64,000 bases of DNA from Microbacterium sp. SLBN-154 (GTDB lineage Bacteria; Actinomycetota; Actinomycetes; Actinomycetales; Microbacteriaceae), in assembly GCF_006715565.1 (NCBI RefSeq), contig NZ_VFNL01000001.1, forward strand, positions 558,001-622,000, written 5' to 3'. Numbering within the stretch: position 1 is the first letter of the stretch; each line of letters opens with the position of its first letter. The notes beneath the pieces were generated by a model. That model saw only the letters and a program-made list of their open reading frames with translations, was not told the DNA's origin and did no database searches. Of the stretch, positions 1 through 5,988 are shown in pieces. The position numbers were made by a program, and so were the translations under genes.

Positions 1-899
1 ATGGCATTGCCGGCCACGGTGACGGGTGCGGTGATCGGGGCGATGACCTGGGTGCCGCCGAGGATGCTGTCCTCGCCGGAGGTCACGCCGGTGATCCCCC
101 CGCCGCTGTCGCCGTTCCCGCCGTTCGCGCCGGTCTGCGTCGTCGACGAGCTGGTGCTGTCGCCGATGCCGGAGATGGCGTTGCCGGCCACGGTGACGGG
201 TGCGGTGATCGGGGCGATGACCTGGGTTCCGCCGAGGATGCTGTCCTCGCCGGAGGTCTCGCCGGTGATCCCCCCGCCGCTGTCGCCGTTCCCGCCGGTC
301 CCGTCGGTCTGCGTCGTGGACGAGCTGGTGCTGTCGCCGATGCCGGAGATGGCGTTGCCGGCCACGGTGACGGGTGCGGTGATCGGGGCGATGACCTGGG
401 TTCCGCCGAGGATGCTGTCCTCGCCGGAGGTCTCGCCGGTGATCCCGCCGTCGCCGTTCCCGCCGTTCGCGCCGGTCTGCGTCGTGGACGAGCTGTCGCT
501 GTCGCCGACGACCGATACGGCGTTGCCCGAGACAGTGATCGGAGCGTCGACCGACACGATCCCCTGCGTTCCGCCGAGGATGCTGTCCTCGCCGGAGGTC
601 TCCGCCGAAACGGGCGCGGAAGCCGGGGCGGACGTCATCGTCGACGAGTCGGACGAGCTGTCGCCCAACACCGAGACCGCGTTGCCGGTGACGGTGACGG
701 GGGCTTCGACGTCGAGCAGGGCTTGCGAGCCCGACCCGATCGCGTCGGAGCCGTCGGTGGTCGCCACCGGCTGCGATGCCGATGAGGCCCCGGGCGGCTG
801 AGCCGTCGAGGATTCCGACGTCGATTCGCTGTCACCGATGACGGAGACCGCGTTGCCGACGACCGAGACCGGTGCGTTCAGATCGACGACGGCTTGGGT
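1..899. repeat. Tandem repeats inside the chaplin-like gene
   Basis: The core 'rTGGCrTTGCCGG' and related copies start at about 1, 175, 349, 517, 676 and 847. The first three units are 174 bp apart and nearly identical; the later spacings are 168, 159 and 171 bp and the sequence diverges. All spacings are multiples of three, so unit gain or loss keeps the reading frame. The array continues beyond the window start. Confidence 0.9.
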
Positions 900-1097: not shown

Positions 1098-2414
1098 TCA
1101 GTCGGGAGAAGCGTCTGTCTCGAAGATCGGCGCCCCGGGAAGGCGATCGTCCTCAGGACCGGCTCGTCGCATCCAGGCACGGTATGCGAAGAGCGGTCCG
1201 AAGGCGATCAGCCCCCAGGTGCCGAGGCTGGCGCCGCCAGACCCGGCGGCAGTGGCATCGCCGGGGAGAACTCCCCCGGGTGAGTCGAAGAGTCCACCGC
1301 GCTTCGCGGTGAGGTCGGGGCTGGCGGTGGCGCCGTCGCCCACGACGGGCGACGCGGAAGTCGACCCGCCCGCGGCGGACGGCCGAGTCCCGTCGCTCAG
1401 GCGGTGGGCGAGCTGAAGAACACCGGATGCCGCGAACGAGGCCGTCACAGCGGCATCCGCTTCCGAGGTTCCGGCGGCGACGACGTTGACCAGAGAAGTG
1501 TCGATCGCATGTGAGGGAGGCGTGGCGGCAGGGGAGCCAGGCCCCTCACCTGCCGCCGGGGGCCGGACGGCAGGTGCGGCGGGCACGGGGCCCGCAGGAG
1601 CGAGGATGTGTCCCGAATCGCCGACGGTTTCGCCGACCGACTCGACACCGTCGTCGATCGATCCGCCGATCTGCTCGACGGCGTCGGGGATGCCGGCGGC
1701 CTCGGCCACCTTGCCGACGACGGGCGTCTGCTCGACGACGTCCGTCACCACCTCGACCACGTGCGACACCGGACGCTGCTCGCCGACGGACGCCGTCAGC
1801 TCCCCGACGGCGTCGACGGCGGATGCCGCGACCTCGGCCACCGGGCGGACGACAGGCTGCAGGGGCGCGGCGGCTGCGAGATCCCCCGCCGTCTTCGTCA
1901 CGTCTTCGGCAACGGTTCCCACGGTTCCCGTCAGCGCGCCGGAAGCGTCATCGACGACAGACGCACCCGCACCGACGATCTCACTGACGGGCGCGGTGGC
2001 GGGCTTCGTCACTTCCCCGACGGCGTCCGTCGCGTCGTCGACCACGGGTACTGCGGTGCCGGTGACCGGTGCGGCGACTTCCTCGACGGTGTCGGTGCCG
2101 CCGTCGACCACGGTTGTCGCGGCGTCAGCGACCGGCGCGGCGACCTTCTCGACGGTGTCGGTGCCGCCCTCCACCACTGTCGCTGCGGTATCGGTGACGG
2201 GCTCGGCGACCGCGCCGACGGTCTCCGCGCCACCCTCGGCGACCGCGCCCACCGCACCCAGCAGACCCCCGGAGTCCTGCGATTCGTCGGCGAGGGCGCT
2301 CGAGGACGACAGTCCGAGCACGAAGGACAGAAGCATCCAGCCGATCGCGACGCCCACACCCGCCAGCACAAGCCGCAGGGGTCGTGGGCTACGACCGGGA
2401 AATGCCCTGTCCAT
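1098..2414 (-). CDS. Exported protein with 22-residue repeats and C-terminal membrane anchor
   Basis: The 438-residue product has an N-terminal hydrophobic segment (about residues 14-43, ending in ALADES) typical of a signal peptide or anchor. Then come repeats of the type VV-x-GGTDTVE-x-VAAPV over about residues 65-150, low-complexity Ala/Val/Pro/Gly sequence, and a short hydrophobic stretch near the C-terminus (GLIAFGPLFAYRAW) followed by basic residues, which looks like a membrane stop. No enzymatic motif is visible. It precedes the chaplin-like gene on the same strand, so both may contribute to the cell surface. I do not recognise a named family. Confidence 0.8.
   Translation of the reverse strand: MDRAFPGRSPRPLRLVLAGVGVAIGWMLLSFVLGLSSSSALADESQDSGGLLGAVGAVAEGGAETVGAVAEPVTDTAATVVEGGTDTVEKVAAPVADAATTVVDGGTDTVEEVAAPVTGTAVPVVDDATDAVGEVTKPATAPVSEIVGAGASVVDDASGALTGTVGTVAEDVTKTAGDLAAAAPLQPVVRPVAEVAASAVDAVGELTASVGEQRPVSHVVEVVTDVVEQTPVVGKVAEAAGIPDAVEQIGGSIDDGVESVGETVGDSGHILAPAGPVPAAPAVRPPAAGEGPGSPAATPPSHAIDTSLVNVVAAGTSEADAAVTASFAASGVLQLAHRLSDGTRPSAAGGSTSASPVVGDGATASPDLTAKRGGLFDSPGGVLPGDATAAGSGGASLGTWGLIAFGPLFAYRAWMRRAGPEDDRLPGAPIFETDASPD
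2015..2278. repeat. 66-bp in-frame tandem repeats
   Basis: Copies of CTCGACGGTGTCGGTGCC-like sequence begin at about 2082 and 2148 (exact 66-bp spacing), with diverged copies about 66 bp to either side. They encode the 22-residue GGTDTVE-x-VAAPV repeats of the surface protein. Confidence 0.75.
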
Positions 2415-3259: not shown

Positions 3260-3423
3260 GGTCGTCTTGCGAGTGTCCGACCCCCTCCTTACCGTGAGTG
3301 GAGCTCAAGACGAGCCGCACGCACAGCGTCGACGCGGACGCGGCGGGAACCTCGGGGCCCGGGGCCGGCGTGACGGGTCGTCGCTTCCGCGCGCGCACGA
3401 ACAACAGGGAGAACACATCGCCT

Positions 3424-5988
3424 ATGTCGATCGCAGACATCTCTGATGAACGCATGGGCGGCCGTCGCGACCCGGAGCGGACGCCGCCGCACGACATGGC
3501 GGCCGAGCAGAGCACGCTCGGCGGGATGCTGCTGTCGAAGGACGCTGTCGCGGACGTCATCGAGACGCTGCGGGGCGCCGACTTCTACATCCCGAAGCAC
3601 GAGATCATCTATGAGGCGATCCTGTCTCTGTACTCGCACGGCGAGCCGACCGACGTCATCGCGGTCACCGACGAGCTGATCAAGACCGGCGACCTGCAGC
3701 GAGCGGGTGGGGCGGACTACCTCCACACCCTCACCTCGATCGTGCCGACCGCGGCGAACGCGGGCTACTACGCCTCGATCGTCGCCGAGCGGGCGCTGCT
3801 GCGCCGCCTCGTCGAGGCCGGGACGCGCATCGTGCAGATGGGCTACAAGGGCGAGGGTGACGCGATCGAGCTCGTCAACAACGCCCAGGCCGAGATTTAC
3901 TCCGTCAACAGCGGGCAGGAGACCGAGGATTACGTTCCCTTGACCGTCGCGGTCGACGCCGCGGTGGACGAGATCGAGGCCGCGCGCGGCCGTGACGGGC
4001 AGATGACCGGCATCCCGACCGGGTTCTCGGGGCTCGACCAGCTTACGAACGGTCTGCACCCCGGACAGATGATCGTCGTGGCGGCGAGGCCGGCTATGGG
4101 CAAGGCACTGGCCCTGGACACGCCGCTTCCGACACCCACGGGTTGGACCACCATGGGCGAGGTCAAGGTCGGGGACGAACTGTTCGATGCCGACGGACAG
4201 CCGACGAAGGTCGTCGCGGCCACCGAGGTCATGACCGACCGGCCCTGCTACGAGGTCGAGTTCTCTGACGGGTCGCGCATCATCGCCGATGCCGAGCACC
4301 AGTGGGTGACGGAGACTCGCGCCGCGCGTCGCGGTGGTCGTGCGACCGCCAGCGTCGTCACGACCGAGAAGATGGCGGCAACGCTGACGGTGGGTGCCGA
4401 GAAGCGGGCGAATCACTCCGTGCGCAATGGTCGACCGCTTCAGGCTCCTCATGCTGACCTTCCGGTGGCGCCGTACGCCCTCGGCGCGTGGCTGGGCGAC
4501 GGTCACACCGCCGGCAATCGCATCACAAGCGAGACCGACGAGATTCCCGGTTTCATCCGCCGCAGCGGACTTCGGGTCGAGGCGCGAGGCGGCATGCTCT
4601 ACTCCGTTCAGCTTCTCGAACGGGAGGAGCTGACGCGGGTCTGCGAGATCTGCGGCGCCGGCTTCCGAGCGCGCCACCCACACGTCCGCACGTGCGGGCG
4701 CACCTGTGGACCGAAGAACAAGGGCGCCCACCCCGAGCGCCTATCCTGCCCAGACTGCGGTCAGCCTTTCTCGGGGGAGGCGCAGCGCTGCGCCGCCTGC
4801 CATCGCGACCACGGCTCGTTCACGGCCCTCCTGCGAAAAGCGGGCGTGCTCGGTGACAAGCACGTGCCGCTCGCGTACCTGCGAGCGTCCGAGGCGCAGC
4901 GCCGCGAACTGCTTGCGGGGCTTCTCGACACCGACGGCACGGTCGTGCGGGGCGTCGGCTCGTGCCAGTTCGCCGTGACGAACAAGAAGCTGGCCGACTC
5001 CGTCTACGAGTTGATCGTCAGTCTCGGTTACCGCTGCGGACGCACGACCAAGCGCGTGAACGGGCGATCGGCGGAGTCGTCCACCTGTTACATCCTGAAC
5101 TTCTCGACGACGGACGACGTGTTCTGGCTCGAGCGCAAGCGCGTCCTCCACGAGCAGGAGCGTCCCGTCGATGTGACGAGAACGGGTCGCCGCTATGTCA
5201 CGGCGGTCCGGCCCATTCCGAGCGTCCCCGTGCGCTGCGTGCAGGTCGACAACGACGACCACCTGTATCTCGCCGGGGAGTCGATGATCCCGACGCACAA
5301 CTCAACGCTGGCTCTGGATTTCGCCCGCGCGGCCGCGATCAAGAACAACATGCCGACCATCGTCTTCTCCCTCGAGATGGGCCGGAGCGAGATCGCGATG
5401 CGCCTCATGAGCGCGGAGGCGGCGGTGCCGCTGCAGAACATGCGCAAGGGCACGCTCGACTCACGCGACTGGACGACGATCGCCTCCACCCGCGGGCGCA
5501 TCAACGACGCGCCCCTCTACATCGACGACAGCCCCAACATGACCCTGGTCGAGATCCGCGCGAAGTGCCGCCGCCTCAAGCAGCGGGTGGGTCTGAAGAT
5601 GGTCATCATCGACTACCTGCAGCTCATGACGAGCGGCAAGCGCGTAGAGTCGCGTCAGCAGGAGGTCTCGGAGTTCTCCCGCGCGCTGAAGCTGCTCGCG
5701 AAGGAGCTGCAGGTGCCGGTGATCGCGCTGTCGCAGCTGAACCGTGGTCCTGAGCAGCGCGCCGACAAGAAGCCGGCCCTGTCCGACCTCCGCGAGTCGG
5801 GATCGATCGAGCAGGATGCCGACATGGTCGTCCTGCTCCACCGTGAGGCGGCGTACGAGCGCGACAGCCCACGCGCCGGCGAGGCCGACCTCATCGTGGC
5901 GAAGCACCGTAACGGCCCGACCGACACCGTGGTCGTGGCGTTCCAGGGGCACTTCTCCCGCTTCACCGACATGGCTGTGGGGATGTAG
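3424..5988 (+). CDS. dnaB: Replicative DNA helicase DnaB with in-frame intein
   Basis: The 854-residue precursor splices to a 455-residue hexameric helicase that unwinds DNA at the replication fork. The N-terminal DnaB domain begins PPHDMAAEQSTLGGML; the RecA-like ATPase domain carries the P-loop ARPAMGK/ST, interrupted exactly between K and S by the intein, then the Walker B region KMVIIDYLQLM and SQLNRGPEQRADKKP. The ATG at 3424 is preferred (AGGGAG upstream, start matches family N-termini); the frame extends in the 5' direction to a GTG at 3298 but that extension looks non-coding. A dense DnaA-box region precedes the gene. The helicase cannot bind ATP normally until splicing restores the P-loop. 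Confidence 0.97.
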   Translation: MSIADISDERMGGRRDPERTPPHDMAAEQSTLGGMLLSKDAVADVIETLRGADFYIPKHEIIYEAILSLYSHGEPTDVIAVTDELIKTGDLQRAGGADYLHTLTSIVPTAANAGYYASIVAERALLRRLVEAGTRIVQMGYKGEGDAIELVNNAQAEIYSVNSGQETEDYVPLTVAVDAAVDEIEAARGRDGQMTGIPTGFSGLDQLTNGLHPGQMIVVAARPAMGKALALDTPLPTPTGWTTMGEVKVGDELFDADGQPTKVVAATEVMTDRPCYEVEFSDGSRIIADAEHQWVTETRAARRGGRATASVVTTEKMAATLTVGAEKRANHSVRNGRPLQAPHADLPVAPYALGAWLGDGHTAGNRITSETDEIPGFIRRSGLRVEARGGMLYSVQLLEREELTRVCEICGAGFRARHPHVRTCGRTCGPKNKGAHPERLSCPDCGQPFSGEAQRCAACHRDHGSFTALLRKAGVLGDKHVPLAYLRASEAQRRELLAGLLDTDGTVVRGVGSCQFAVTNKKLADSVYELIVSLGYRCGRTTKRVNGRSAESSTCYILNFSTTDDVFWLERKRVLHEQERPVDVTRTGRRYVTAVRPIPSVPVRCVQVDNDDHLYLAGESMIPTHNSTLALDFARAAAIKNNMPTIVFSLEMGRSEIAMRLMSAEAAVPLQNMRKGTLDSRDWTTIASTRGRINDAPLYIDDSPNMTLVEIRAKCRRLKQRVGLKMVIIDYLQLMTSGKRVESRQQEVSEFSRALKLLAKELQVPVIALSQLNRGPEQRADKKPALSDLRESGSIEQDADMVVLLHREAAYERDSPRAGEADLIVAKHRNGPTDTVVVAFQGHFSRFTDMAVGM
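4105..5301 (+). mobile_element. Class 3-type DnaB intein with LAGLIDADG homing endonuclease
   Basis: The 399-residue insertion runs from Ala1 (after the P-loop Lys) to Asn399, followed by Ser+1. Block A starts with Ala instead of Cys/Ser. Block B has H65 and W67 (ADAEHQW). Block F has C378 (VRCVQVDN), block G has T397 (IPTHN). This Trp/Cys/Thr trio with no N-terminal nucleophile is the defining set of class 3 inteins, whose archetype is the DnaB intein of mycobacteriophage Bethlehem. Endonuclease motifs are LGAWLGDG (about 126-133) and LLAGLLDTDG (about 269-278). Between them sit two Cys4 clusters: C180/C183/C197/C201 and C215/C218/C229/C232. Asp residues of both endonuclease motifs are present, so homing may be active. 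Confidence 0.93.

Follow-up and report, generated by a model that had tools for sequence, protein, structure and literature searches.

A full-length class 3 intein interrupts the one clear DnaB of a Microbacterium chromosome at the DnaB-b site, in the window analysed here (the whole stretch of 64,000 nucleotides). In the reading that we favour, with a probability of roughly 0.85, class 3 splicing would restore the Walker A motif of the helicase, a LAGLIDADG domain would allow homing, a Cys module within this domain would bind zinc, and the intein would have come from a Nocardioides-like donor of another order. The P-loop site and the class 3 chemistry are already known from passages of PMC6195587 and PMC5050341. 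For the most part the intein is a well-preserved representative of a known kind; its one variant feature is the Cys module.

The intein within DnaB and its splicing residues

The plus-strand frame 3298-5988 is open, with an ATG at 3424 and no stop through DnaB, and its DnaB coding is interrupted in frame by 399 residues (table 1). With a slash for the junction, the two ends read ...AARPAMGK/ALALDTPLP... and ...MIPTHN/STLALDFA..., and thus the insertion point is located between the Walker A Lys and Ser (...PAMGK/STLALD). The first 33 positions of DnaB_C lie directly N-terminal of the junction, in the N-extein. In the close relatives G207 and G084, empty alleles (...ATGGGCAAA/TCAAC...) align at the same point, which fixes the boundaries of the intein. 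An earlier note on this DNA had placed an intein in DnaB, between the Lys and Ser of Walker A; the open frame, the junctions and the empty alleles all agree with this placement. The genome is one 3.57-Mb contig, and therefore the copy is chromosomal. Besides the one clear DnaB, the genome has an additional 24-bit match in a 456-aa frame, which we presume may be a related RecA/RadA-type ATPase. The AlphaFold model of the intein has a pLDDT of 92.9.

Table 1. Features of the interrupted dnaB gene (positions in the window)
Feature	Position	Strand	Remark
DnaB N-extein, 227 aa	3424..4104	+	ends in Walker A ...AARPAMGK; Pfam DnaB N-terminal domain 9.7e-31
Class 3 type intein, DnaB-b (P-loop) site, 399 aa	4105..5301	+	in frame
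N-terminal half of splicing domain (blocks A and B), starting with Ala1, a non-nucleophile	4105..4404	+	end approximate; residues 1-72 align gap-free to 6bs8
Cys48, where M. smegmatis DnaBi1 has the redox partner of its catalytic Cys	4246..4248	+	Cys in 103/108 aligned inteins
Trp67, block B, W of the WCT triplet	4303..4305	+	108/108 aligned inteins
LAGLIDADG (DOD) homing-endonuclease domain	4447..5124	+	limits approximate
First LAGLIDADG-type motif, LGAWLGDG	4480..4503	+	
Cys cluster 1, C180-x2-C183-x13-C197-x3-C201	4642..4707	+	Cys invariant in 36/36 module-bearing rows
Cys cluster 2, C215-x2-C218-x10-C229-x2-C232	4747..4800	+	Cys invariant in 36/36 module-bearing rows
Second LAGLIDADG motif, LAGLLDTDG	4912..4938	+	
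Cys378, block F, presumed first nucleophile and branch point	5236..5238	+	108/108
Thr397-His398-Asn399, block G, C-terminal cleavage residues	5293..5301	+	108/108
DnaB C-extein, 228 aa	5302..5985	+	starts STLALDFA; Pfam DnaB_C 1.1e-98

The residues expected of class 3 splicing are all present. W67, C378, T397, H398 and N399 are each invariant in the 108 aligned unique inteins, the window's included, a set that leans to relatives of the query, its genome loci having been found with query peptide patterns (80 of 118 kept). Residue 1 of the window's intein is Ala, not Ser, Thr or Cys, and 102 of the 108 have Ala there. The WCT triplet is formed by Trp B:12 (W67), Cys F:4 (C378) and Thr G:5 (T397). 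In the phmmer search of the PDB, the class 3 DnaB intein of Mycobacterium smegmatis (6bs8) was matched with an E value of 1.9e-42, the match being limited to the splicing blocks; class 3 DnaB inteins are the nearest relatives of known structure, and kinship in both sequence and fold with proven class 3 inteins was found. The earlier note had named the triplet, the terminal Asn, Ser+1 and the initial Ala, all of them at the positions found here, and had read them as class 3. This assignment stands on the missing N-terminal nucleophile, the triplet and the solved relatives, the intein trees of this analysis being composed of class 3 type rows only.

DnaB would thus be synthesised with a split P-loop. 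C378 would attack the Lys-Ala bond to form the class 3 branched intermediate, the N-extein would be transferred to Ser+1, Asn399 would then cyclise, and the rejoined Lys-Ser would restore Walker A. Ser+1, the first residue of the C-extein, is the Walker A Ser and, as judged from the sequence, also the second splicing nucleophile, so that helicase activity should wait for splicing. Passages of PMC6195587 make the same argument for DnaBi1 of M. smegmatis and cite the case of RadA, where a P-loop intein goes with an ATPase defect. That unspliced DnaB is unable to hydrolyse ATP, as the earlier note had stated, can fairly be inferred.

The residues behind the inhibition of DnaBi1 also have their counterparts. 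Under oxidation, the catalytic Cys118 of DnaBi1 forms a disulfide with Cys48, as described in part of PMC6195587, and zinc inhibits this intein by binding to C118, V119 and Y128, according to a passage of PMC7360933. The latter three align with C378, V379 and Y388 of the window's intein, which together with C48 complete the residue set for a DnaBi1-type response to redox state and zinc; such a response may be expected here. The five exceptions to Cys at position 48 among the aligned inteins are all viral, and four of five further fetched records have Cys there, the one without it being phage CMP1. Although a passage of PMC6195587 calls Cys48 non-conserved, this distribution suggests that it may belong with the class 3 core. 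Cys48 was not mentioned in the earlier note.

The homing endonuclease and its Cys module

Within the insert, Pfam LAGLIDADG_3 scores above its cut-off. Both LAGLIDADG motifs are intact in the window's intein and in its clade, with the acidic residues and the domain fold in place. Across the six pairs formed by the window's intein and those of three near relatives, dN of the nuclease domain is 0.013-0.030 against dS of 0.37-0.80, a ratio of about 0.02-0.07. The N-terminal splicing half is less constrained (about 0.06-0.26), and the Cys-module stretch alone (about 0.05-0.12) is looser than the nuclease domain overall; the C-extein protein has zero differences in the same pairs. These ratios show purifying selection on the nuclease. 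Since DnaB expression needs an open frame and not a working nuclease, the constraint points to selection on function, although it could partly come from the folding of the whole intein. The domain would cut empty dnaB alleles near the Lys-Ser codons, and the intein would be copied in by recombination.

For a class 3 intein, having a nuclease is nothing unusual, since 82.5% of the 1701 class 3 inteins reported in a passage of PMC7891396 carry LAGLIDADG motifs. The mycobacterial DnaB-b inteins studied in PMC5050341 are described, in the relevant part of that paper, as being without endonucleases. Four mycobacterial loci of 416-417 aa (L055, L056, L064 and L086) have intact nuclease motifs and the Cys module, so that the full-length form extends beyond Microbacterium and Nocardioides.

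The Cys module occupies residues 180-232, between the two LAGLIDADG motifs, and is double zinc-ribbon-like, with paired CxxC knuckles. All eight Cys columns are 100% Cys in the 36 module-bearing rows (at least 7 of 8 Cys) of 61, and for the remaining 61 columns of the stretch the median share of the commonest residue is 0.47, with four columns reaching 0.95. Pfam DZR_2 (double zinc ribbon) matches 33 of these 36 members at E values up to 1 (best 1.3e-05); for the window's own module the matches are weak (DZR 0.045, DZR_2 0.2). Modelled alone, the module gave a pLDDT of 75.6 and a pTM of 0.41, and the model had no match among PDB folds at E 0.001 or better. The module profile against PDB sequences produced weak matches only, zinc fingers and ribosomal proteins among them (best E 0.0014).

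Among 86 unique chromosomal inteins, a count that takes in the window's and two from another P-loop ATPase, 45 have both module halves, 10 the second half only and 31 neither. None of 22 unique viral inteins has either half, and the double module is absent from all 21 viral tree rows. With the 279-aa L022 left out, the module is present in 44 of 66 chromosomal rows with intact nuclease and in 1 of 19 with degraded nuclease (Fisher 1.8e-6); a link of the module with nuclease integrity is not claimed, as seven independent pairs on starred branches gave a median sign-test p of 0.25.

By analogy, the module is best read as zinc-binding and DNA-contacting: it most likely binds two zinc ions and would add DNA contacts for target recognition. 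A long shot, about which we are very doubtful, is that the built-in double zinc finger both extends the LAGLIDADG target reach and, as free zinc blocks the catalytic Cys of class 3 DnaB inteins, buffers or senses zinc beside the splice site, which would make homing and helicase activation dependent on metal and redox state. The earlier note did not mention the zinc-finger-like module. In open-licence PMC literature (titles and abstract starts), no description of the Cys module or of this Microbacterium intein appeared among the matches listed; PMC5050341 mentions Microbacterium once, as an abbreviated genus name in the legend of a figure.

Two other accounts of why the insert persists were weighed. 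The insert could be retained as a conditional splicing switch, in which the Cys48-Cys378 pair and zinc let oxidative or metal stress restrain DnaB. The wide occurrence of Cys48 and the match of Cys48, Cys378, Val379 and Tyr388 with the disulfide and zinc-inhibition residues of DnaBi1 (parts of PMC6195587 and PMC7360933) fit such a role. However, all seven substitutions of Cys48 tried in the experiments covered by that part of PMC6195587 abolished splicing of DnaBi1, a requirement that alone could explain the conservation, and only 23 of 366 Microbacterium genomes carry the insert, so that the genus has no need of the switch; we regard this account as unlikely. Somewhat less likely still is a relic that can splice but in which the nuclease and the Cys module have ceased to function. 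Splicing alone suffices for DnaB, and degraded nuclease motifs do occur in 20 of the 86 unique chromosomal inteins, 18 of these 20 being without the Cys module, but the motifs intact throughout the window's clade and the low dN/dS of its nuclease domain speak against a relic.

Distribution and origin in Microbacterium

Own genome included, 24 of the 366 genomes of the genus match the intein at E 1e-10 or better. Nineteen have a full-length copy in a single frame; in two (G338 and G238) the copy is split over two frames, as seen from the match table and frame lengths, in G042 it is nuclease-degraded (279 aa), and in G271 it lies at a contig end. The remaining genome, G097, has remote matches of 36-39% only, which leaves 23 genomes with the intein at the DnaB-b site, and the DnaB C-extein was found in 353 of the 366. 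In a Microbacteriaceae sample of 299 genomes, two matched, both of the same genus (1 of 85 genera), and the other 84 sampled genera showed none. The C-extein protein of the window recurs unchanged in five other genomes, of which three are filled and two, the above G207 and G084, are empty. The intein DNA of Microbacterium sp. AK009 (L031) is the same as that of L004 from G224, of the same genus.

The patchy state was followed on an extein DNA tree of 46 genomes, a non-random sample of 20 filled and 26 empty ones, the latter from the 30 best C-extein matches. There are 10 changes between filled and empty on the best tree, 9-10 on bootstrap trees and 5 when starred branches alone are counted, and a tree that holds all filled genomes together as one clade is rejected (p-AU 3.8e-28). 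Within the genus, the intein and extein trees show the same two main clades of inteins (a 7-versus-12 split), and thus many of the patchy cases may be losses and not fresh gains. Six tests of transfer within the genus, with groups picked after viewing the trees, gave p-AU of 0.30, 0.043, 0.035, 0.094, 0.0005 and 0.45, and two further groups were already in the best tree and hence had no test; such transfer is at most suggestive. By eye, a flank such as GGCTATGGGCAAG/TC-ACGCTGGCTCTGGAT recurs in several of the filled alleles. A co-conversion footprint is not claimed: after the 20 filled and 26 empty genomes had been thinned to 13 of each, the p values were 0.28, 0.17 and 0.24 for windows of 5, 7 and 10 codons.

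The first intein tree has 106 rows, with L165, L170 and L022 omitted. In it, the Microbacterium copies form with Nocardioidaceae and one further Propionibacteriales MAG a group of 28 rows on a starred branch of 100, and the closest chromosomal relatives from Propionibacteriales are mostly Nocardioides. Among 44 chosen rows, the window's intein is 67-73% identical to those of eight Nocardioidaceae and the Propionibacteriales MAG, with exteins at 58-66%; for three other Micrococcales (two Arthrobacter and one Promicromonospora) the order is reversed, with inteins at 54-58% and exteins at 64-70%. The intein data reject a union of Microbacterium with the other Micrococcales (p-AU 7.7e-5), whereas the extein tree groups them together (93, not starred). 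The extein data reject Microbacterium with Propionibacteriales only marginally (p-AU 0.072) and L066, among the three inteins from other Micrococcales, sits on a long branch, and so part of the incongruence could be weak signal. The kinship of the intein with Propionibacteriales chromosomes and the rejection of the Micrococcales clade fit best with an entry from the chromosome of another order. The intein would most likely have reached Microbacterium from a Nocardioides-like donor; some congeners carry it today, most do not.

Vertical descent with many losses, by which an ancestral actinobacterial DnaB intein was kept in the carrier genomes of the genus, appears improbable. It would account for the common 7-versus-12 split and for the degraded copy of G042, but the 84 other genera sampled from the family gave no match, the closest kin belong to another order, the intein data reject the Micrococcales clade and, across orders, the intein is more similar than the extein. 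Loss after one entry into the genus is fully compatible with these findings. A direct passage from an actinobacteriophage to the Microbacterium chromosome has the lowest probability among the accounts considered and is very unlikely. The earlier note had taken the chromosomal copy as a sign of past phage-to-host homing, and class 3 type inteins are indeed common in phage TerL and helicases. Yet the 21 viral class 3 inteins take their own side of the 106-row tree (96, starred), apart from the group of Microbacterium and chromosomal Propionibacteriales, and none of them has the double Cys module. Over the full length of the intein, identity is below 60% in all of the 700 matching phage records, against the higher values of the nine Propionibacteriales chromosomes; among the 532 phage records that match a stretch of 107 aa around the N-terminal junction, 31 show 60-80% identity. 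A second tree, built from 56 earlier rows and five named phage and plasmid rows (61 in all), separates viral from chromosomal inteins weakly (62). On it, a union of Microbacterium with the full set of 10 viral rows is rejected (p-AU 0.003), and a union with phage Rousseau alone, the best phage DnaB-like intein, is not (p-AU 0.12). As the proximate step, phage-to-host homing is not supported.

For entry from another order's chromosome, a plasmid or an unsampled phage is a possible carrier. Three of 39 plasmid records have a place more than 60% identical; the matching places are short, cover 17-27% of the query and lie in the dnaB genes of mycobacterial plasmids, so that none is a close whole copy. 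A remote phage origin of all class 3 inteins, put forward as a hypothesis in a passage of PMC3196547, would also favour the phage route in general terms and is neither proved nor refuted by the present data.

Comparison with known systems

The M. smegmatis DnaBi1 intein (6bs8, 6own) is likewise of class 3 at DnaB site b, with the same P-loop site, WCT triplet, Cys48 and Ser+1, and its splicing core is 63% identical over 125 residues. It is a mini-intein (139-aa chain) without a nuclease, whereas the window's intein has 399 aa with a LAGLIDADG domain and the Cys module. The M. chimaera DnaB-1 intein (6rix, 6riy) has the class 3 DnaB core in common, but its crystal chains of 145-146 aa are too short for a nuclease domain. 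A nuclease is thus missing from the structurally solved class 3 DnaB inteins (6bs8, 6rix), and the window's group is full-length with a conserved nuclease. As filled, empty and nuclease-degraded alleles coexist in the genus, a homing cycle at an essential P-loop could be watched there.

The TerL and DnaB-like inteins of actinobacteriophages Gaia, CMP1 and Rousseau share the class 3 residues and LAGLIDADG-type motifs, and that of Rousseau is also placed at the P-loop (GK/T) of a DnaB-like helicase. Their identity is 34-46%, the double Cys module is absent in the frames examined, and they fall outside the chromosomal DnaB group, though on the weak split given above. The PI-SceI / VMA1 intein (1ef0, 1vde, 1lws), with about 18% identity and another host gene, is of class 1 and is not known to have a Cys module of the type found here.

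The closest parallel to the module is found in yeast HO and WHO, in which, as here, a LAGLIDADG intein-like nuclease is joined to CxxC zinc-finger motifs, as described in part of PMC7282813. There the finger is C-terminal, and splicing and the exteins have been lost, whereas the window's module is located inside the nuclease of a splicing-type intein. A passage of the same paper presents HO and WHO as the only intein-zinc finger fusions known, which implies that a zinc finger inside a splicing-type intein was unknown in 2020. If the Cys module binds zinc, the window's intein would be of this kind and would add a further intein-zinc finger case to HO and WHO.

Reduced and interrupted DnaB-b inteins within the genus

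The DnaB-b intein of one congener (G042, locus L022) has only 279 aa. The splicing residues are kept, while the Cys module and the second LAGLIDADG motif are both gone, and this intein is an intermediate stage toward a mini-intein. Two other Microbacterium genomes, G338 (L020/L026) and G238 (L021/L025), carry a dnaB intein that is split across two frames, which is due either to a real frameshift or to an assembly error.

Upstream of the window's dnaB gene, repetitive open frames are located on both strands.

Repetitive open frames upstream of dnaB in the window
Feature	Position	Strand	Repeats
Repetitive open frame	1-801	+	MALPATVTGAVIGAMTWVPPRMLSSPEV
Repetitive open frame	1098-2414	-	rich in Ala/Val/Thr

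Inteins of class 3 type in other proteins

Besides the DnaB-b intein, an additional class-3-looking intein is found in two congeners, i.e., G241 (L028) and G183 (L030), inserted at MRGR | TLND in a protein that reads as PhoH. It starts with AQPLD, has HLW in block B and VC in block F, and ends in VTHN followed by Thr+1; its matches to the window's intein are partial (33-41% identity).

Chromosomes of Amycolatopsis and Saccharopolyspora (L102 and L103) contain a class 3 type intein in a P-loop ATPase other than DnaB, perhaps a prophage terminase, with the insertion point GLGGGK|SFLGGG. On a Paenarthrobacter plasmid (L173), a protein with a helicase C-terminal domain is interrupted in its P-loop (GVGK|T) by a class-3-looking intein.

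Full-length mycobacterial relatives

Four Mycolicibacterium and Mycobacterium loci (L055, L056, L064, and L086) harbor full-length DnaB-b inteins of 416-417 aa that have lost neither their nuclease motifs nor the double Cys module. In their nuclease motifs they differ from the published nuclease-free mycobacterial inteins; according to PMC5050341, the mycobacterial DnaB-b inteins studied there have no endonuclease.
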